From: Bacteroidota bacterium | Lineage (GTDB): Bacteria; Bacteroidota; Bacteroidia; Bacteroidales; ML635J-15 | Length of the DNA: 64,000 nt | Direction of reading: 5' to 3' | NCBI GenBank assembly: GCA_029558535.1 | Contig: JAKQEK010000317.1 | Span: 1-64,000 of the forward strand | In this document: piece by piece, positions 17,001-35,374 of the stretch | Position numbering within the stretch: position 1 is the first letter of the stretch | Layout: each line of letters starts with the position of its first letter | Position numbers and translations under genes: made by a program | Notes under the pieces: model-generated | Seen by the model: the letters and a program-made list of their open reading frames with translations, nothing else | What the model was told of the DNA's origin: nothing | Databases searched by the model: none

Positions 17001-17740
17001 AATAAATTATTTTTATTTGATATGTAAACACATAATAGAACTAACAAAAGAATAAAAGTAACAAAGGCAAATAATTTGAATACTTCAGCAAGGTTAAGTC
17101 TTGCTTCTGTACCTATCTTTTCAGTATCTGAAATTAAAAATATGCATGAGTTTTTATTGTTAAAACATACTTTTTCAGATCCCTTTACAGGTTCTATGCT
17201 GATTGCTGTGCTTTCGTCTATCTTCAACGATTTGCTGAAAGAATTTTTAATAATATCATTTTCGTAATTATATTCTTTTTTTATTTGGTATAACCCAACA
17301 ATATGGAAATCTTCCTTTTGAACAGAATAGCACATATACCAACCATTGTTCAGGTTTATTATTGTTGTGTCAAAGAAACCATAGGTCGTACTTGTGGGAA
17401 CAGGGATGCTATTTGTTGTCCAATATTTAAGATTGTTGTTGCTATAAAGAAATAAGCCTGTTTCTGATTCTTCAAATAAGTCTTTACATTCAGAATAAAA
17501 GTAATCCTCTTCATTAAAATCTTCAGTATTTATGTTTTCACTAATATATTCTGTTTCTGCTTTTAAATTTGAAAACTTTTCATCGAGAATTTTTTCAGTT
17601 TTTTCTATATCAATAATTTCTTTAGTTGCCGAATTTTTATCAGCTTTAAATAAAAAGGCAATCGAAACAGAAATTATTAAAAATACTGTTAGAATAATAA
17701 TGTGTCGTAGCTTAATATTATTGAGTGTAGTATTATTCAT
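14039..17740 (-). CDS. large membrane sensor histidine kinase (NtrY-like)
   Basis: 1233 residues from ATG 17740 (MNNTTLNNIKLRH). An upstream in-frame start at 17794 would sit deep inside rlmH. Order: one helix and an extracytoplasmic segment; a block of about eight hydrophobic helices (around 215-470); a second extracytoplasmic segment; helices near 740 and 790; a third extracytoplasmic sensor segment; a helix near 935; HAMP; a HisKA box AHEIKNPLTPMKLS with phosphoacceptor H1023; and a HATPase_c domain (NLIKNSIQAIP, DNGCGIPEYMKPKIF, SAGMGLGLSMVKSM). The NPLTP phosphoacceptor motif is that of NtrY-type kinases. No response regulator is adjacent. The start overlaps the rlmH stop by 8 bases, suggesting coupled translation. 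Confidence 0.88.
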   Translation of the reverse strand: MNNTTLNNIKLRHIIILTVFLIISVSIAFLFKADKNSATKEIIDIEKTEKILDEKFSNLKAETEYISENINTEDFNEEDYFYSECKDLFEESETGLFLYSNNNLKYWTTNSIPVPTSTTYGFFDTTIINLNNGWYMCYSVQKEDFHIVGLYQIKKEYNYENDIIKNSFSKSLKIDESTAISIEPVKGSEKVCFNNKNSCIFLISDTEKIGTEARLNLAEVFKLFAFVTFILLLVLLCVYISNKNNLFAAISPVIILIIFSLIRYLMLKTEYTQSLSDFKLFSPELFAESFWLPSLGEYILNVFAFFIFSLTFLIYYKPRFNVLSNLFIRTVFSISIALLMFLSGSFISDLFYGLVWNSSISFSFENPLSLDVYSFIGVTIVFTIILSFVFIFYRLIKILKNYISPILLSISLLVFHVISIIFNKSGIITTETNLICTGLFLILWLSLGLICLKKDINYLFSFIFVITISLITSEHFSRFSNQKEIDAYKVITYNLAAERDVAAEFFLMKTYNEIKVDVDLAEYIINQDFKGITNRINNILQSKRYFNKYETQTTICLCKDSLLIEPDMVSVDCFDFFRNQIDTYGIIIPGTNFYFLDNHNGRISYLGEISTKLKDSLYINIYVELNSKIFSEGLGYPEMLLDKKLIVKKTAKKYNYAKYNKGRLISSKGDYKYQFTLKPEINDSAEYSIYTSDGYIHFKYRPDPDNIIILSKPDTQFSKELVSFTYIFVFVFLIFNILWLFKNFKSSFKKGASLKVKIQTSFVAISVISLLLTGTLSIYFIIQGYKQKQREAVLDKTHSVIIELEHKVGDLDKLNYEDSQYLNTLLVKFSNVFYTDINLYDLNGLLLSSSRIELYDKGLKGRYMEPEAYRQLLINNAGTVIINENIDNINYLSAYIPFRNYDNEIIAYLNLPYFARQSEFTEEISNFIIAFSNIFLLLIILSVIISVFISRQLTRPLVIIQEKIKSMDIKKKAEKISYIKNDELGGLIREYNRKVDELSESANKLAQSEREMAWREMAKQIAHEIKNPLTPMKLSVQYLERTYDMKDENWEQTYRKVSKTLIEQIDILSGIASEFSNFAKMPTSKKEIINLPEIINTSVQLFENTENIDFNVIIDIKSMGNINADKEQMLRVFNNLIKNSIQAIPEDRKGNIDIILNELEKSYIVKIVDNGCGIPEYMKPKIFQPNFTTKSAGMGLGLSMVKSMLISNNATIHFNTEEGIGTEFIIEIPIEKD

Positions 17741-20587: not shown

Positions 20588-22699
20588 ATGAAAAAATTAT
20601 TCCTGAGTATTTTTATTCTTTTAACTTCGGTTGTTACTTTTGCACAGCCTACTGTAGCTGAAGATTTTACTGTTACTGACATTGATGGTGTTCAACACAA
20701 CTTGTTTACATATCTGGATCAGGGAAAATACGTGTATATTGAGTTTTTGCTGAAGGGTTGAGGCACATGTGAGGCGTCTATCCCGACGTTAAATAACATT
20801 TACGAAGCTTTTGGTTGCAATAACTTTGAAATGATTGTTTTGGGCTTGTATAATAGTTCGACAAACGATGCGATGGTGGAAATCCTTCGAGACGAACTGG
20901 GAATTATTGTTCCCTTGGTAAGTGGTTATAGCGGTTCGACAAGTGTAATATCTTACTATGGGGTAGAAGCTTTTCCCGAAACTATATTAATTAAACCGGA
21001 TCGTTCGGTAATATACGATGGTACAGAAACTCCTCTTAGCAATATTACCACAATTGTTTCATTAGGCCCACATCAGAATGCTTGTCCTGAAGACTGGCCG
21101 GTTGCACAATTTTCGGGAACACCATTGGTAATTCCCATTAATTCAGGAGTTATCTTTACTGACCAGTCTACTAATCCGATAAGTCAATGGATTTGGACTT
21201 TTGAGAATGGAACACCTGCAAGTTTTAACGGTCAAAATCCACCTGAAATAATTTACAATGTGGCTGGTTATCATGATGTTAGCTTAACTGCACGAAATCA
21301 GTTTGGTAATGAGAATTCAATAACAAAAAATGATTATGTATTAGTTTATGAGCTTGCTGATACCACCCCTGTTGCATGGTTTACTGCAAATCAAGTTATT
21401 GTTGTAGCAGGGAATACGGTTGATTTTACTGACCTTAGCTATGATTTTCCTTTCGAATGGCGATGGGCTTTTCAGGGAGCAGTACCGGCGACTTCATTTG
21501 TTCAACATCCTCAGAATGTATTATATAATACAACAGGAACTTATGATGTACAGTTGATTGTGCGAAATTCACAGGGTTATGATACTCTTTTAATTGAAGA
21601 TTATATCAGAGTAATTCCCGATGCTGGAACAGAAATTCCTATTGCAAATTTTACTACTCAAAACCGACTGATTAAATCAAATACATTGGTTATGTTTCAA
21701 GATTTGACAATAAATAATCCAATGTTCTGGTCATGGGCATTTGAGGGTGGTGATCCTTCATATTCCAACACTCAACTTCAGCCACAAGGGATTAGATATT
21801 TGAATACCGGATTTTTTGATGTAACTTTAAATGTGGGAAATACAAATGGTGCTGATGTGTTAACAAAAAGGGATTATATTGTAGTTTATGATTCTTTTGT
21901 AGGAACGGTATGTGATACAATATCTAATCTGCAAAATGGCGAAATTCCTTATGCTATGCAGATTAACGGAATGACCGGTTTTTATGGTGGACATAACTCA
22001 GACAGAATAACCATGTATGCTGACTATTATGACTATCATACATTTAATCAGGTTTATGGAGTAATTGTTCCTGTATTGGATGTGGACTACTTGTCGAATA
22101 ACTCTTATATTAGATTTATGACTTGGGATGGAGCTCATGATGTGCCTACAACTATTTTAGGTGATCAGAAAGTTTATTTGCGTGATTTAAGAGAGAATTA
22201 TCTTCAAGTTATATTGTTTGATGAGCCTCTTGACGTTGACGGACCATTTTATCTGGGATATTCAATAAATTATGCCGATGGTGATAATTTTGTGGTGGGA
22301 ATGGCTCCTAATCGCGGTCATGGAGGTTTCAATACTTTGTGGGTTAATAAAAATGGCCTTTGGAAAAGGTCTTCTTCAGAATATGATATTTCGACATCAA
22401 CAGGAATTAGACCGTTGACTTGTTTAGTTGGAATTGAGGACGAATTATTAACTGAAAGTACAGGTATCTTTCCAAATCCTTGCTCCGACAGACTGTTTAT
22501 TGACAATAGCCTTTGTTTCGATGATGGAGACTTTGTAGAAATCTTCGATAAAACGGGTAAAACTATTCTTATGCAATTCGCAGATCAGGGAACTAATACT
22601 ATAGAACTGAATACCCAAAATATTTCACAAGGTGTTTATTTTGTGAGAATTTTTACAAAAGGCAAACTTGTGAACGAAAAAATTACTATTATCAAATAA
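20588..22699 (+). CDS. thioredoxin-fold/PKD/T9SS protein with in-frame TGA at the CxxC motif (candidate selenoprotein)
   Basis: One frame of 703 codons from ATG 20588, interrupted only by TGA at codon 58. Order: signal peptide (1-20, ending TFAQ); a TlpA/thioredoxin-like domain (about 24-160: EDFTVTDIDG, YVYIEFLLKG-TGA-GTCEASIP, EAFPETILIKPD); three PKD domains (about 171-255, 256-345, 346-430; each with W-W-F/A-F-x-G and a G-x-Y/F-D-V strand); a domain of unknown type; and a T9SS sorting domain (IFPNPCSDRLFI ... GVYFVRIFTKGK). In related Bacteroidota proteins the TGA position is the first cysteine of CxxC, so the motif would read U58-G-T-C61. The alternative is a nonsense mutation, with translation only from ATG 20831 and no signal peptide. 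Codon 58 is the only lesion in the gene. Confidence 0.7.
20759..20761 (+). other. in-frame TGA, candidate selenocysteine codon
   Basis: This TGA is followed by GGC ACA TGT, giving a UxxC arrangement that aligns in exact register with thioredoxin CxxC (F-x-x-x-x-C-G-x-C). Two weak hairpins follow. One spans 20773-20790 (six pairs including two G-U, loop UAUCCC). The other spans 20787-20804 (seven pairs, one bulged U, loop AAC). Neither has the guanosine expected in a bacterial SECIS loop, so the RNA evidence is weak. TGA is used as a normal stop elsewhere in the window. Confidence 0.5.
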
Positions 22700-24339: not shown

Positions 24340-25560
24340 CTACGGATTTTTTACCACTCCGGTAAAAAGAATTACTTCAGTACTTCTTTCTCTAATTATG
24401 AAAACAAAAGGTCGGTCACAGGTAAAATATACCGGTCCGTCCGGCACGCCAGATGTCAATGACACTTCAACGGCAGTAACTGCTGCAGCTTCTGTCCCTT
24501 TTTCAGTTACATCTATATAGGTTTTGTGTTTTACTTTTGAAACAAATAATCCACCGGTTCCATTTATCCCTGACAAGTCAGCCATATTTGGATTAAATAA
24601 ATCAGTCATTCCCAACTCGCTTAGCATAGGAATTAAATCATTTTCAAATTCGAACTGAAATTTAGGCATTGTTAAAAGGATATCTTGGTCATATAAACCT
24701 TGAGTTATTTCTGTCCAACGTGCCTGATCTAGATTAGCAATTAAATCAGCCGGATTTGATTCGTAAACAGGTAGCAATATGTCCATGACAAAATTCCCTT
24801 GTCCGTATGGCAACTCAACGACATTAACCGATTCGTCAAAATAGTATTTTAACCCTGCTTCCATTTTCATCATCTCAACCTGGATGCTGTTATTGTCTGA
24901 AATATAGAAATCGCCATTTTGAGTCTGCGAATTATCAAATTCGTATCTCCATTTACCGTAAAAATAAACCGCATTGATTAAATACATAATTGCATCAGTA
25001 GGAATATTATCAATTATAGTGGGAATTTTGTCATTTGTATTGTCTGAAACCCAATCGTTTATTGTACTTATTGCCTCCGGTGAATCGAAATTCAGAGCTT
25101 GTACATGAGCGTTGTAATATTCCTGATTAACATCAAGAAATGATTGTACGATATTAAAAGTGTTTCTGTACCATATTGAGTTTGCAATGGATAATGTTAC
25201 TTTGCTGTCAAGATCAACAATCTCGTCCATAATATAATGAAAGAATTCGTTAAATTCGTTGATTTCAAATCCCTCAAAACCAAGTGTAGTAAGCATTTGA
25301 TCCTGCGTGTTGTTTTTAGCTCCGTTTGCCGTCATTGCCAAAGCATAATTAACACTCAGGGGAGAAATCATGAAGTTATCATCTGTAGTTTCGCTTACTT
25401 TCTGAAATAATCCCAAAGAAAATTCATTTCCGGCTACAACAATTTCTTTTTGTTTTGTGCTTAGTTTTATTTCTTTGACATCAGAATCATTGTCTTTTTT
25501 ACACGAACTAATTACTGATAGTATCAGTATAATCGCTATAAAGAAATATCTGCTTTTCAT
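24340..25560 (-). CDS. serpin-family serine/cysteine protease inhibitor, lipoprotein
   Basis: 406 residues. A lipoprotein signal ends SVISSC (C20), so the protein would be membrane anchored. The serpin fold is clear: NFMISPLSVNYALAMTANGAKNNT, SIANSIWYRNTF, AVYFYGKWRYEFD, then the hinge and reactive loop. The hinge EKGTEAAAVTAV fits inhibitory serpins (P17 E, P15 G, P14 T, small residues P12-P9), and the shutter end reads DRPFVFIIRE. Counting from the hinge puts P1-P1' at or next to Thr-Ser (SLTSGVP). Some Bacteroidota serpins, such as Tannerella miropin, inhibit both serine and cysteine proteases. It is divergent from a papain-like protease gene. Confidence 0.93.
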   Translation of the reverse strand: MKSRYFFIAIILILSVISSCKKDNDSDVKEIKLSTKQKEIVVAGNEFSLGLFQKVSETTDDNFMISPLSVNYALAMTANGAKNNTQDQMLTTLGFEGFEINEFNEFFHYIMDEIVDLDSKVTLSIANSIWYRNTFNIVQSFLDVNQEYYNAHVQALNFDSPEAISTINDWVSDNTNDKIPTIIDNIPTDAIMYLINAVYFYGKWRYEFDNSQTQNGDFYISDNNSIQVEMMKMEAGLKYYFDESVNVVELPYGQGNFVMDILLPVYESNPADLIANLDQARWTEITQGLYDQDILLTMPKFQFEFENDLIPMLSELGMTDLFNPNMADLSGINGTGGLFVSKVKHKTYIDVTEKGTEAAAVTAVEVSLTSGVPDGPVYFTCDRPFVFIIRERSTEVILFTGVVKNP

Positions 25561-29185: not shown

Positions 29186-32100
29186 TTACTTAACTTTTAC
29201 TCTAACGCCTTCCGAATGGCTGGTAAACTCGGGGGCGTACATACATTGAATTGTAGTTATGCCATTTGAGAAATCTCCTTTTTGAGCAACAATCAGTTCG
29301 TATTCGAAGACATAAGTCCCTTTACGGAGATAGTCAATGAAGAAATTCATCGAAGCATCTTTAATGCCCTGATAGTAACCTAATCCTGCTTTATATCTGT
29401 AACCCGATAAATAATCAACAGGTTCAAAACAACTAGCTCTCATATCTTTAAGATGAACGTATTCCATATCTCTGTCAACTCTGATTTCGATACGAACAGT
29501 AACCCTATCACCAACAGCTAGTTTTGCATCTTTTTCAATAGGTACTATTACCGGTTTTGCCCCTTCTCTACGCTCGACGAACAATTTCTTTTTAATCGTC
29601 AAAGGGGTTTCTTCAAATGTTGTAATTTTATCAAGTTGTTCGAAATATTGCCAGTAAACAGCACCCCAGGATACAGTATTTGATGATTTGGTAACCGTAA
29701 TATCACCCCATTCCGGTTTAACGAGGCTTCCGTCCCATGCTTTCTTAAAATATCCTGTACCAGCATCGGTTTTAATTTCAGGATCGTTTGCTGCATCAAT
29801 TTTCATTGAGCCCACAGTAATTATGGCTATTTCGTCATCAGCCAACATATCACTGCCACGAAGAAGTAAAGCATATATAGCTTCGGCTGTTGCTTTTGTG
29901 GTTTTCCAGTCCTGAGTTTGTTTTTGTTTCAGCAACCACACTTTCATTTCTTCAACAGATTGCTGATCATCAATAACTTCATCAAAAGCTTCTATTAGTA
30001 ATGCCTGGGTTTCTATTGGAGCCTGATACCAGTAATATCCTCTGTCATTTTTCCAGTACATACCCATTTCTTCACTATTAAGAGAATGTTCTTTGATTGA
30101 TGCCATAATTTTTATAGGAGTAGTTTTGTCCTCAAAACGGTGTAAAGCTAAAGCAAGCATACCCTGCATATAGAAACTTTTGTTTTTCCAGTATTTCTCT
30201 GCCTGACCTTTATAATATTCAAAAGCTTCTTTTGTAGAATTGTCAATAGGAACTTCATCAATAAAGTAAGAACGGGCATATAAATAATGTATTTGCATAT
30301 ATCCGAGGTGATCTTCGGCCATACATTTTGAATCGCAATATTTTTTCATATCCTTATAACTACGAACCAGTTCGTAATCAATAAAGCCTATAGCCTTTTT
30401 AGTCATGTTCCATGTTTTGTTGTCTTTCTTTATTTCTGTGACTCCGAGATTATCAAGATGACCTAGACCACAAACAATATGCTGTGTTATATACCAGCTC
30501 TCAGGCATTCCTTTGAACCATGCCCAACCACCGTTATATTTTTGCTGTTCTTCAAGTTTTTTAAGGGCAGATTTACTTTCCATACTCATACGATTAAGAT
30601 CAAACAGCAACCCGATACGATGTTTTCTTTCGTTTTCATCTTTGGCTTCAAGTACCCATGGAGTTTCTTCGAGCATTAAGGCTTTGAGTTCCTGATTCTT
30701 TTCAAGATTTGACATTAGAGCTTCGCTGTTTGGAGTATTTCTCCATATTTCAAATACTCTCTTTATTTTTGGATCACTGTTAGCAATATGTGTTGCCAAC
30801 ATATTTGCATAGTACCTCGAAAATGTTTGTTCTGCACATTCGTATGGGTATTCCATAATATATGGTAATGCCTGAACAGCATACCAGGCAGGGTTAGAGG
30901 TAAATTCAAGTGTAAATCTGTGATGGCGTAATGTAGTTGAATTTTCGCTATCTTTTAGCCTTCCCATTGTAAATTTTGTTGTACCTGATTTTCTTACGGG
31001 TAGTGGCATTGTTTCAGTTACCAGCATTCTGTTTGTTAAAATCGGGACAATTCTTTCTTCACCATCTGAGTGGTCTTTGCCTTCTGCGACAATACGTACT
31101 CCAACTGCACTAAGACCTTCGGGAATTGAAATGTCCCAGTTCACTGCAATGTTTTTTCCTGATTCGATTTTAATATCTGCCAAGTTTGAGTCATTTCCTA
31201 AGAAATCCTTGTTAATTATCTTCAAAGTCACAGGATCAAAAAACTCAATGCTTGCTTTCCCGATAATTGTAATTTCAGAAATATTATTAATTTTTGTACT
31301 TATGGTCATTTTATCATTTTCGCGGAAAAATCTCGGCAAATTTGGCATAACCATTAATTCTTTCTGTGTAATCATTTTTTCATTGATTATGCCCATTTTA
31401 AGATCTTTAGTATGTGCAAAACCAAGGAAATTCCATTTCGTAAGGCTTTCAGGAACAGTGAAACTGATAAGTACTTCACCATTTTTATCTGTAGTTAGGG
31501 TAGGATAGAAAAATGCAGTTTCGTTAAAGTTTTTGCGTATTTGAATATCCTGACCTCCATTCTTACCATCGCTTCTGGTGTTTCCATTACGATTATCAGA
31601 TTCATCACGATCTTCTCTTTCTCCGGCAAACTGCTCCATATCTTTGTTTTTATCAACACCGCCAAGACCGTCCATAAAGGGAGATTCTTCAGAAACAGCA
31701 CAATCAGCAACTGTTTGTGTTGCACCGGTTGAGGACATTGGCATAAGTGCGGATTCATATTTTCCTCCTGAACTTTTTCTTGTTACATCATCTCCATAAT
31801 AATATCTCCCATAGTAACTCAATCCATAATAATTGAAATAAGGGACATATCTATAAATATATTCAGAGGCAGGGTAAAAATCTTTATAATTTACTGCTGA
31901 ATATCCATAACTAAAACTTGTCAAAGACCAATAAGCGTATGAATAATAGTATGGATAAATAGACCACCACCATGAATTAGCAGCAAAGACATCAAGAGAT
32001 GCATCATAAAGCGTTGCCATCATTTCAGCATCGGCAGGATTGCCTGAATGGTCTTTTATTTTTATTTTCCAGTTTTCGGCTGAACCGGGTAGTGTTTTGT

Positions 32101-35100
32101 CACGGAAAGTGATGAATTTTAAATCGAGTTGTTTGTCTAGCCAATATACCTCAATTCTATGCGAAAACGAGTATAATCTTCCGTCTTTAATAAACATAAA
32201 ATTAGCTGTTGCTCCTCCTAAAAATGTTTCATCAACAGGGATTTCTATTTTCTTTAATTCTGAACTCAGATTAATAATTTCTGTTTTGACAGTTTTTCCT
32301 TTTGTTTCAAGTTCGTACAAAATCTGAACATCTTTATATGAAGACCCCAGATATATGGTAACAGTTTCGCCGGGTTGAGCACTGTATTTGTCATAAGAGA
32401 AAAATGAAGTGGCCGTATATGGCATATCTTTATCAGAATCAGAAAATAAAACAAATTCAGATTGAGTTTTGATTGGGTTCCCCCATTTGTCTTTAGATTT
32501 TAATACAACTCTGTATGCTCCTGATTCCCATTTATTAACGCCATTAAGTTTTAGTTTTTTCTTATCTGCGGTGTTGACAGTGGATTTAAATACCGATTTT
32601 GATGTTTTCCAAAGAGAATAATCTGTTTCATTTTGATACTCGTTTCCTGGATATTGTGCATACCATTCTTCTTTTGAGTACATTTTATTGTCAGCATCAC
32701 TCCATTGTCTTTTTGAAAGAAGTAATTTAGGATCTTCAAGTTTGAATATCTCTACTTCAACGATAGCGGGAACAAATACTCCGGAAATATTAGTCGTGCT
32801 TATGCTGATACTATCTACTTGTTCTTTTAATAAGGTTCCATATATATCATGAGAAACAGACAAGGCTTTGTCTGATACATAAACGTATGTCGCTGTACCC
32901 TGAGTTTCTCCGTTGATATCAGTAACTGATACACTAATTGTATAATTGTAATAAACGTAATCTTTCATTGCACCGACATCTTCGGCCAGAGCTTTAAATC
33001 CTATTTTAAATTTTCCGGTATCATCTGTTTCCAATTCCCCGAAAGCAATTTCTTTTGAAGTAAATCCTCCGCCTCGATAATAACCCCACCATAAAGGATT
33101 ACGAACAATTTTGTAAGATACTTTCGCATCCGTAAGAGGTGTACCTGCATAAGTAATTGCTTTACCTTCGGCATAAACACTATCATTGATTCTGTATTCT
33201 CCTTCGATTGGTAACATATCTACTTCAAACATTGGTCGTTTGTATTCTTCTACTTTAATATACATTGAACCGCCATAGCAGGAAAGTGTAAAATTACCTG
33301 TCAATACATCTAACGGAATAGTGAAGCTGCCGTTAAAACTTCCAAAATCGTTTGTCTTTACATGTGCCTGACCTATTTCTTGATAATTTACATCTTTTAG
33401 AAAAACTGATGTTGAATAATTAGTCAGAAGATCCATCTTTTCGCCTGTTTTTTCGATGCATATACCTTTAAAATACACAGTCTGTCCAGGTCTGTATATC
33501 GCTCGGTCTGTAAAAAGTTTGACTTCAGTTATAGTTTTTTCTTCAGGATCTGATGAATAATACTGGTAACTGCTTTCTGATATAAAATCTTTATCTTTAC
33601 TTACATCAATTCTAATATTGTAATAATCAGCAGTATTGGTTTTTTTCATTGCAACATATCCTTTTTTATCAGTATATTCTGTTGCAACTTTAGTGTAAAC
33701 ATAATCGCGTTTTATGTAAGAGTATTCGTATTTGTAAGCATCAACTTTTGCATTTTCAACCGGAGCTCCCGTATTGCGGTCAAACACATAATAACCTCTG
33801 TTTCTATAATAGTTATTGTTATTAGTTAAACTTAAGTCTGAAACAAATACCTGAGAATATGCCAGATAATTTTCCTCAAGAGCAAATTCGGGTTTGGCAT
33901 GTAAATAAATAATATAAAATCCCTTTGGTAATCCTTGAACCAGATATTCTGTATAATGTGTATTCAGATCTGAAGTTTTTGGAAGATTTATTAAAACTGA
34001 GCTAACAACAGGCTTTGCAATTTTTAGTAATGATTTTATATAACCTTGATCATAATAATTCTTTTTAAGATTCAAATATCCTTCATAATCACAAGACAAA
34101 ATTGTCAAATATGCAGTTTCTGCGTTTGTATAGGTAATTCTGATAGGGAATTTTTTGTCTCCGCTAACAATATTTTCGTTTTCGAATGAGAATGATAATT
34201 TTTCAATTTCTGCTTTGAGATTTTTACAATCAGGAGTATAACATGCATCCGGATAAAGTTTTATTGCGGCATCCAATAGCGTGACAGCTTTACGTTTGAA
34301 TAATCTAAATTGAGTTTTAGTAGAATCCATAAAATTGTACGAGCTTCCAAGTTGATTGTAATATTTTGCTAGTTCGTAATCTACCATAGTAAGTTCGGGA
34401 TGTTTATAATATTTATCATGGAGTTTAAGAAGTCCTGCTTCCCATAAATCATCTTTGTTGACAGCATACATTTTTGATTTAACAAAGTTCAATCTTTTAA
34501 TGTCTGTGAATAGATAAGCTTCTATATTTTTATTATCAGATAATCTAAAATCTATCCATTTTTGGTAAACTTTTATAGCAGCGTAATTATATGATAAAGA
34601 GTCTGCTTCAACAGGAAATTTTACAAATTCCTCTGCATCAGCCAAATAAGCAGGTTCTGTGATTTTATCTGTATTTTGATTACCATACCCATAATAATCG
34701 TAATAATCATATTCATAATAATAGTAATTGTAATAACCCATTCCGGCCGATAATCTGTTTACTGCTATAAAAGCTACAAAATCGTACAAAGTTGGGAATT
34801 GATTTTTACTATCTTTAGCATTAACAACAAAGTCTTTGTATTCTTCAAGATTTACGGTTTTTAAATTGTCATTCAATGCCAGCAAATAGTTCTTTATTAT
34901 TTTGTCCTGAAATCTGGTTTTATCCCAGGTTTTTAAATCAGTTAATTCAAAATTAAAAGTTACAGACCTTTGGTTGATCAGATAAGCATTATTAGAGTAA
35001 TAATCTGCATACATTGTTGCTAATAGCATGTGCATAATTGCTTTTGACACTCCATCTACTTTACGAATATCCGTTTCCAGTTTGAGAATGGCTTTTTCAT

Positions 35101-35374
35101 AGCCGTCTTCTTCAAGAATATTTGTATATTTCAATCTGTAGAGGGTAGATTTAATAATCTGTTGGTCGTTTTTTTCTGCCAATGCCAGAACAAAAATTTC
35201 CTCAACTTTTTGCAATGCCGATTGAGGCAAAGCATCATTTTCGAATTTGGTTACTTCTTCCCAAAGCTTCTCGTACTTATCAGGGTCTGAGTTAAAACTG
35301 TCAAGTAAGGAATAATTGTTAACGAATAGGAGAGAAGTTAACAAAAACGCGATTCTAAAAAACATAGTGCTCAT
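29186..35374 (-). CDS. bacterial alpha-2-macroglobulin family protein
   Basis: 2062 residues. An N-terminal hydrophobic segment (about 5-22) lacks a lipobox cysteine, unlike many bacterial homologues. About 400 helical residues follow, then MG domains (TEVKLFTDRAIYRPGQTVYFKGI is the MG/MG2 signature; PTLTTDKNGEVLISFTVPESLTKWNF precedes the core). The thioester motif is CAEQ at residue 1513 in EYPYECAEQTFSRYYANML, so the bait-and-trap chemistry could be intact. An alpha/alpha-toroid domain follows (GGWAWFKGMPESWYITQHI). Two tyrosine-rich stretches lie near residues 213-231 and 1150-1195. The protein is thought to trap proteases at the cell envelope. No pbpC neighbour is present, unlike in many Gram-negatives. 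Confidence 0.92.
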   Translation of the reverse strand: MSTMFFRIAFLLTSLLFVNNYSLLDSFNSDPDKYEKLWEEVTKFENDALPQSALQKVEEIFVLALAEKNDQQIIKSTLYRLKYTNILEEDGYEKAILKLETDIRKVDGVSKAIMHMLLATMYADYYSNNAYLINQRSVTFNFELTDLKTWDKTRFQDKIIKNYLLALNDNLKTVNLEEYKDFVVNAKDSKNQFPTLYDFVAFIAVNRLSAGMGYYNYYYYEYDYYDYYGYGNQNTDKITEPAYLADAEEFVKFPVEADSLSYNYAAIKVYQKWIDFRLSDNKNIEAYLFTDIKRLNFVKSKMYAVNKDDLWEAGLLKLHDKYYKHPELTMVDYELAKYYNQLGSSYNFMDSTKTQFRLFKRKAVTLLDAAIKLYPDACYTPDCKNLKAEIEKLSFSFENENIVSGDKKFPIRITYTNAETAYLTILSCDYEGYLNLKKNYYDQGYIKSLLKIAKPVVSSVLINLPKTSDLNTHYTEYLVQGLPKGFYIIYLHAKPEFALEENYLAYSQVFVSDLSLTNNNNYYRNRGYYVFDRNTGAPVENAKVDAYKYEYSYIKRDYVYTKVATEYTDKKGYVAMKKTNTADYYNIRIDVSKDKDFISESSYQYYSSDPEEKTITEVKLFTDRAIYRPGQTVYFKGICIEKTGEKMDLLTNYSTSVFLKDVNYQEIGQAHVKTNDFGSFNGSFTIPLDVLTGNFTLSCYGGSMYIKVEEYKRPMFEVDMLPIEGEYRINDSVYAEGKAITYAGTPLTDAKVSYKIVRNPLWWGYYRGGGFTSKEIAFGELETDDTGKFKIGFKALAEDVGAMKDYVYYNYTISVSVTDINGETQGTATYVYVSDKALSVSHDIYGTLLKEQVDSISISTTNISGVFVPAIVEVEIFKLEDPKLLLSKRQWSDADNKMYSKEEWYAQYPGNEYQNETDYSLWKTSKSVFKSTVNTADKKKLKLNGVNKWESGAYRVVLKSKDKWGNPIKTQSEFVLFSDSDKDMPYTATSFFSYDKYSAQPGETVTIYLGSSYKDVQILYELETKGKTVKTEIINLSSELKKIEIPVDETFLGGATANFMFIKDGRLYSFSHRIEVYWLDKQLDLKFITFRDKTLPGSAENWKIKIKDHSGNPADAEMMATLYDASLDVFAANSWWWSIYPYYYSYAYWSLTSFSYGYSAVNYKDFYPASEYIYRYVPYFNYYGLSYYGRYYYGDDVTRKSSGGKYESALMPMSSTGATQTVADCAVSEESPFMDGLGGVDKNKDMEQFAGEREDRDESDNRNGNTRSDGKNGGQDIQIRKNFNETAFFYPTLTTDKNGEVLISFTVPESLTKWNFLGFAHTKDLKMGIINEKMITQKELMVMPNLPRFFRENDKMTISTKINNISEITIIGKASIEFFDPVTLKIINKDFLGNDSNLADIKIESGKNIAVNWDISIPEGLSAVGVRIVAEGKDHSDGEERIVPILTNRMLVTETMPLPVRKSGTTKFTMGRLKDSENSTTLRHHRFTLEFTSNPAWYAVQALPYIMEYPYECAEQTFSRYYANMLATHIANSDPKIKRVFEIWRNTPNSEALMSNLEKNQELKALMLEETPWVLEAKDENERKHRIGLLFDLNRMSMESKSALKKLEEQQKYNGGWAWFKGMPESWYITQHIVCGLGHLDNLGVTEIKKDNKTWNMTKKAIGFIDYELVRSYKDMKKYCDSKCMAEDHLGYMQIHYLYARSYFIDEVPIDNSTKEAFEYYKGQAEKYWKNKSFYMQGMLALALHRFEDKTTPIKIMASIKEHSLNSEEMGMYWKNDRGYYWYQAPIETQALLIEAFDEVIDDQQSVEEMKVWLLKQKQTQDWKTTKATAEAIYALLLRGSDMLADDEIAIITVGSMKIDAANDPEIKTDAGTGYFKKAWDGSLVKPEWGDITVTKSSNTVSWGAVYWQYFEQLDKITTFEETPLTIKKKLFVERREGAKPVIVPIEKDAKLAVGDRVTVRIEIRVDRDMEYVHLKDMRASCFEPVDYLSGYRYKAGLGYYQGIKDASMNFFIDYLRKGTYVFEYELIVAQKGDFSNGITTIQCMYAPEFTSHSEGVRVKVK

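Follow-up and report, generated by a model that had tools for sequence, protein, structure and literature searches.

A gene within a 64-kb stretch of Bacteroidota DNA (hereafter the window, meaning the whole stretch) very probably encodes an exported UxxC selenoprotein, in which UGA at codon 58 is read as selenocysteine (Sec) by the organism's own machinery under the direction of a stem-loop. That Sec is inserted, that the protein reaches the surface and that it is redox-active are inferences. Here we describe the reading frame and the Sec genes that accompany it, the distribution of its TGA among relatives, the candidate insertion signal, and the domains on which the predicted export and activity rest.

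A reading frame with a single internal TGA

The frame at 20588–22699 on the forward strand comprises 704 codons which, on translation of the window, contain one internal stop, TGA at codon 58 (20759–20761), before the terminal TAA; with U58 the product would be 703 residues long. The surrounding motif, EFLLKG-*-GTC-EASIP, places the TGA at the first-cysteine site of CxxC in a ResA/TlpA-like domain, and the predicted resolving cysteine of the resulting UxxC, C61, is encoded at 20768–20770; it is invariant in the 20 Sec genes and also present in Cys homologues. The 645 codons past the TGA remain open. An earlier note on this DNA had described a frame broken only at codon 58, with a thioredoxin-like domain, PKD domains and a T9SS tail, and had placed the TGA in register with the attacking cysteine; translation and domain profiles confirm the former, and the latter is borne out by the family profile, which puts U58 at the first Cys of CxxC in ResA structures.

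When the 64-kb window was scanned for frames with an ATG start, one internal TGA, at least 40 codons before it and at least 60 after it, only 20588–22699 was recovered. Of the 44 window ORFs of at least 150 aa, 3 end in TGA, which is thus a normal, if rare, stop in a code that has not been reassigned.

Selenocysteine machinery

The assembly containing the window (5.8 Mb, 88% complete, fragmented) carries on contig C305 a cluster of tRNA-Sec, selA, selB, a cysteine desulfurase family gene, yedF and selD. The tRNA-Sec, with anticodon TCA (tRNA-Sec(UCA)), scores 62 bits, and it, selA (507 bits), selB (316 bits), selD (367 bits) and YedF are all above their cut-offs. The earlier note had advised looking for selA, selB, selC and selD, and all four are in the same genome. 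The frame of a formate dehydrogenase near the cluster continues through a TGA in the canonical Sec context IDHCARL-U-HSSTV (CAR-U-H type). Because tRNA-Sec, selA, selB, selD and a Sec-type formate dehydrogenase are encoded, the organism, judged from its genes, uses selenocysteine. This formate dehydrogenase, an alpha subunit with its TGA at the canonical Sec site, is encoded at 17680–19001 of C305 (locus L026 of the window's genome, G000) and resembles NuoG/hydrogenase in its N-terminal part.

Distribution of the TGA across the order

Relatives were searched in 41 genomes, and an order-wide profile search covered 393. Among the 41, three other genomes of the same genus hold an orthologue with one TGA (about 84, 62 and 54% identity) and seven hold one with Cys; the order-wide search adds 16 genes with exactly one TGA. 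Besides the window gene, 16 other genomes of the order thus contribute 19 TGA genes with the identical codon. The alignment of homologues that the earlier note had proposed places the TGA of all 20 genes at the same UxxC residue, with Cys at that site in 44 sampled homologues, and the window gene is no isolated case but belongs to a family found across the order, in which Sec and Cys have been exchanged repeatedly. No TAA or TAG was found inside the domain among the close (strong) homologues. Identity among TGA genes is 54–85% within the genus and 31–43% across the order, and Cys61 and Pro130 are invariant in the alignment. In a phylum-wide sample of 395 genomes the TGA form was not seen beyond the window's order, so that this sample lends no support to a broader distribution; viral contigs were also searched, without result.

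In a tree of 64 domains, parsimony infers 11 Sec/Cys changes, at least four of them forced by well-supported branches, and selenoproteins and their Cys counterparts usually show repeated exchange of this kind. Genes upstream are common to the genus orthologues, and synteny is kept with genomes G001, G003 and G009. Codons on both sides of the TGA show purifying selection; past it, dN is far smaller than dS (dN/dS about 0.06–0.18), dS being near saturation. One genome, G170, holds three Sec paralogues, two in tandem (L107, C27 3434–6527; L102 2978–5089).

The TGA form also co-occurs with Sec machinery. Of the 17 TGA genomes, 14 have selA or tRNA-Sec, versus 7 of the 52 Cys-only genomes (Fisher 3.5e-7), although such Fisher values count related genes as independent and carry no correction for relatedness. 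The TGA gene adjoins tRNA-Sec and selA in G055 and tRNA-Sec in G168, and in G221 and G367 the gene shares its contig with selA, at most about 5 and 11 kb away. The TGA genes of G055 and G168 (L096, L097) have tRNA-Sec on one side and, on the other, a gene apparently for an ABC-type substrate-binding protein, which might be functionally linked to them. No Sec machinery was found in the assemblies of the TGA genomes G001, G057 and G258 (fragmented, 76–95% estimated completeness), and tRNA-Sec is all that G168 shows of it; these four assemblies are all multi-contig (about 160 to 450 contigs).

Other readings of the TGA

A single base change from TGT or TGC suffices to produce a TGA, and in a fragmented assembly a nonsense mutation in a dying gene might be suspected. 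Such a pseudogene would not be expected to share its TGA codon with 19 other genes in a family where no strong homologue has TAA or TAG in the domain, to keep 645 downstream codons open and under purifying selection, to retain synteny with G001, G003 and G009, or to co-occur with Sec machinery, and we regard this explanation as very unlikely. There are no read data at 20759–20761, which leaves room for a sequencing or assembly error there; the same TGA, however, is found in independent assemblies of other species, and the chance of an error is practically negligible.

The UGA might also be read through without selenocysteine, by insertion of Trp or Cys for example, or reflect a general change of code. 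The rarity of UGA as a stop (3 of 44 long ORFs) is compatible with this, and the Cys of homologues implies that Cys insertion would be tolerated at codon 58. Yet the window has no other comparable in-frame TGA, the presence of the TGA tracks selA and tRNA-Sec, and its position is always that of the redox Cys; we give recoding of this sort as little weight as the pseudogene. An ORF does exist from ATG 20831, so that the true start could lie there with the upstream part untranslated, but the resulting 622-aa product would lack both signal peptide and active site, while conservation and purifying selection extend over the codons upstream, which makes a downstream start scarcely credible. Sec insertion at UGA-58 remains the reading that we adopt.

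A conserved hairpin downstream of the TGA

A hairpin, GGCGUC-UAUCCC-GACGUU, at 20773–20790 on the forward strand is a candidate bacterial SECIS element. Its core, CGUC-U(A/G)UCCC-GACG, is found at a fixed distance past the UGA in all four TGA genes of the genus, with the loop 17 nt after the UGA, and is absent from all seven Cys orthologues of the genus. Third bases of codons +5 to +9 are identical in 5 of 5 cases in the four genus TGA genes versus 39 of 205 elsewhere (p=3e-4), and among conserved, highly degenerate codons elsewhere only 3 of 47 are identical in these genes. In the family as a whole, 14 of the 20 Sec genes versus 8 of the 44 Cys genes have a hairpin of –3 kcal/mol or lower at the SECIS position (p 9e-5), the same scan leaving 6 of the 20 TGA genes without a clear one. 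The G170/G057 group shows compensatory changes in the hairpin, which sliding the register removes.

The bSECIS consensus comprises a loop 16–37 nt away, at least 4 bp, a G in the first two loop positions and an MFE of –7.5 or lower, and some bacterial SECIS elements do not fit the published model (PMC13188914). The window hairpin fits this consensus only in part: its stem and spacing agree with it, and the hairpin is conserved. A G in the first two loop positions is present in G003 and G009 and absent in the window and G001 (UAUCCC). The earlier note had seen no SECIS with a G in its loop; this holds for the window's own loop, but a conserved SECIS-like hairpin is nonetheless there. Values of –5.5 for the isolated window hairpin and –10.3 for the whole 57-nt fold were obtained, and shuffled sequences fold about as stably (z –0.11), the formate dehydrogenase control from the same genome doing no better (z 0.33). 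Because these shuffle z-scores are uninformative, the control included, the case for a SECIS was rested on conservation.

Domain architecture and predicted export

The predicted Sec-type signal peptide (MKKLFLSIFILLTSVVTFAQ; 20588–20647) was recognized by inspection of the sequence alone, in an N-terminus that is conserved in orthologues. It is followed by a ResA/TlpA-like thioredoxin-fold domain (residues 24–148; 20657–21031), matched by Pfam Redoxin (2.4e-8) and AhpC-TSA and, through the family profile, by ResA structures (best solved-structure match 4nmu, 8.6e-20). The ResA subfamily model NF002854 gave 43.7 bits, below its curated cut-off of 170. Pro130 (20975–20977) is presumably the cis-proline opposite the active site, a role that we assume from the thioredoxin fold in general. 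The fold, with its UxxC/CxxC and cis-Pro, has no support beyond the sequence; a structure predicted for the N-terminal domain with AlphaFold, from three sequences, was of low quality (mean pLDDT 41) and was set aside.

Three stretches matching Pfam PKD/PKD_4 mark three PKD domains at about residues 171–436 (21098–21895), and a T9SS type-A C-terminal sorting domain occupies residues 627–701 (22466–22690; PF18962, 1.7e-12; TIGR04183, 35.6 bits against a cut-off of 23). Redoxin/AhpC-TSA, PKD and Por_Secre_tail are all above Pfam cut-offs in the product. The T9SS tail is present in 18 of the 19 full-length TGA proteins, and the SprA translocon is encoded in the window's genome (2706 bits). The exported, T9SS-sorted selenoprotein that the earlier note had put forward is supported by the Sec genes, by TGA in 19 other genes and by the conserved hairpin downstream.

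Cys77 (20816–20818) and Cys166 (21083–21085) are invariant in the full-length alignment of Sec proteins, from which we infer that they may form a structural disulfide or possibly a relay. Elsewhere in the same genome (C389:71615–73510 and C174:27396–29810) lie PKD/T9SS-type proteins that match residues 169–702, not the thioredoxin domain; because these relatives are without it, the redox domain may be grafted onto a shared scaffold. The window also holds serpin and alpha-2-macroglobulin-like genes (24343–25560 and 29189–35374, both on the reverse strand), two types of protease inhibitor less than 10 kb apart.

Proposed route and activity

We propose that UGA-58 would be decoded by the organism's SelA, SelB, SelD and tRNA-Sec, insertion being directed by the small stem-loop, the loop of which starts 17 nt past the codon. 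The product would then be exported, by the general secretory pathway first and by T9SS next, across the outer membrane, and would be either displayed or released, its UxxC site pointing away from the cell. There the selenol of U58 may attack a disulfide or peroxide, with Cys61 resolving the bond and the three PKD domains acting as spacers, so that the predicted surface activity is that of a thiol/selenol oxidoreductase or peroxidase. T9SS crossing and redox action at the surface are expected because a signal peptide, a ResA/TlpA-like domain, PKD spacers and a type-A tail are combined in one protein; all steps that follow translation are deduced from the domains, and environmental thiols or sulfide as the extracellular electron donor are a guess.

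If this is true, a surface Sec enzyme operates out of reach of the periplasmic thiol-reducing systems and has to take its electrons from extracellular thiols, sulfide or another donor, which raises the question of how a Sec-based thioredoxin-like enzyme stays reduced beyond the outer membrane. The broader view, that T9SS-displayed Sec enzymes in one Bacteroidota order draw electrons from extracellular thiols, sulfide or a surface donor and that Sec and Cys are swapped repeatedly as sel genes are lost or kept, we hold with only modest confidence, as somewhat favoured. With many Sec/Cys swaps in one family, these genes offer a good system for asking when Sec repays its cost. Standard gene callers would cut the family at codon 58, leaving a short fragment and a signal-less remainder.

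Comparison with known systems

ResA/TlpA thiol-disulfide oxidoreductases are the closest solved structures by sequence, with U58 aligned with their first Cys; they use CxxC and work anchored at the cytoplasmic membrane, whereas the window protein has UxxC. T9SS type-A cargo such as gingipains has the signal peptide and type-A sorting domain in common with the window protein, in whose genome SprA is encoded, but no T9SS cargo with selenocysteine was found described in the literature searched. None of the NCBIfam selenoprotein models matched any of the 19 full-length TGA proteins.

Selenoproteins of the UxxC Prx-like, thiol-disulfide isomerase-like and Redoxin kinds (PF00578, cd02966, PF08534; PMC13188914 Table 1) share with the window protein the same Pfam families, the UxxC motif and the existence of Cys homologues. 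Unlike the window protein, these selenoproteins are reported without mention of PKD domains, secretion or Bacteroidota (PMC13188914). Selenocysteine in exported proteins, as here, has been predicted before, in a secreted trypsin-like protease, MucD, an MtrB/PioB barrel and a TonB receptor (PMC2398784, PMC13188914); these have other folds and are not T9SS cargo as far as described. No literature joining selenoproteins with T9SS or PKD domains was found in a search that left out most subscription papers and all preprints. Since UxxC selenoproteins of Redoxin, Prx-like and cd02966 kinds are already known (PMC13188914) and exported ones of other types already predicted (PMC2398784), the description that fits the window protein best is that of a UxxC thioredoxin-like selenoprotein whose architecture and export route are new and which would add selenocysteine to T9SS cargo.
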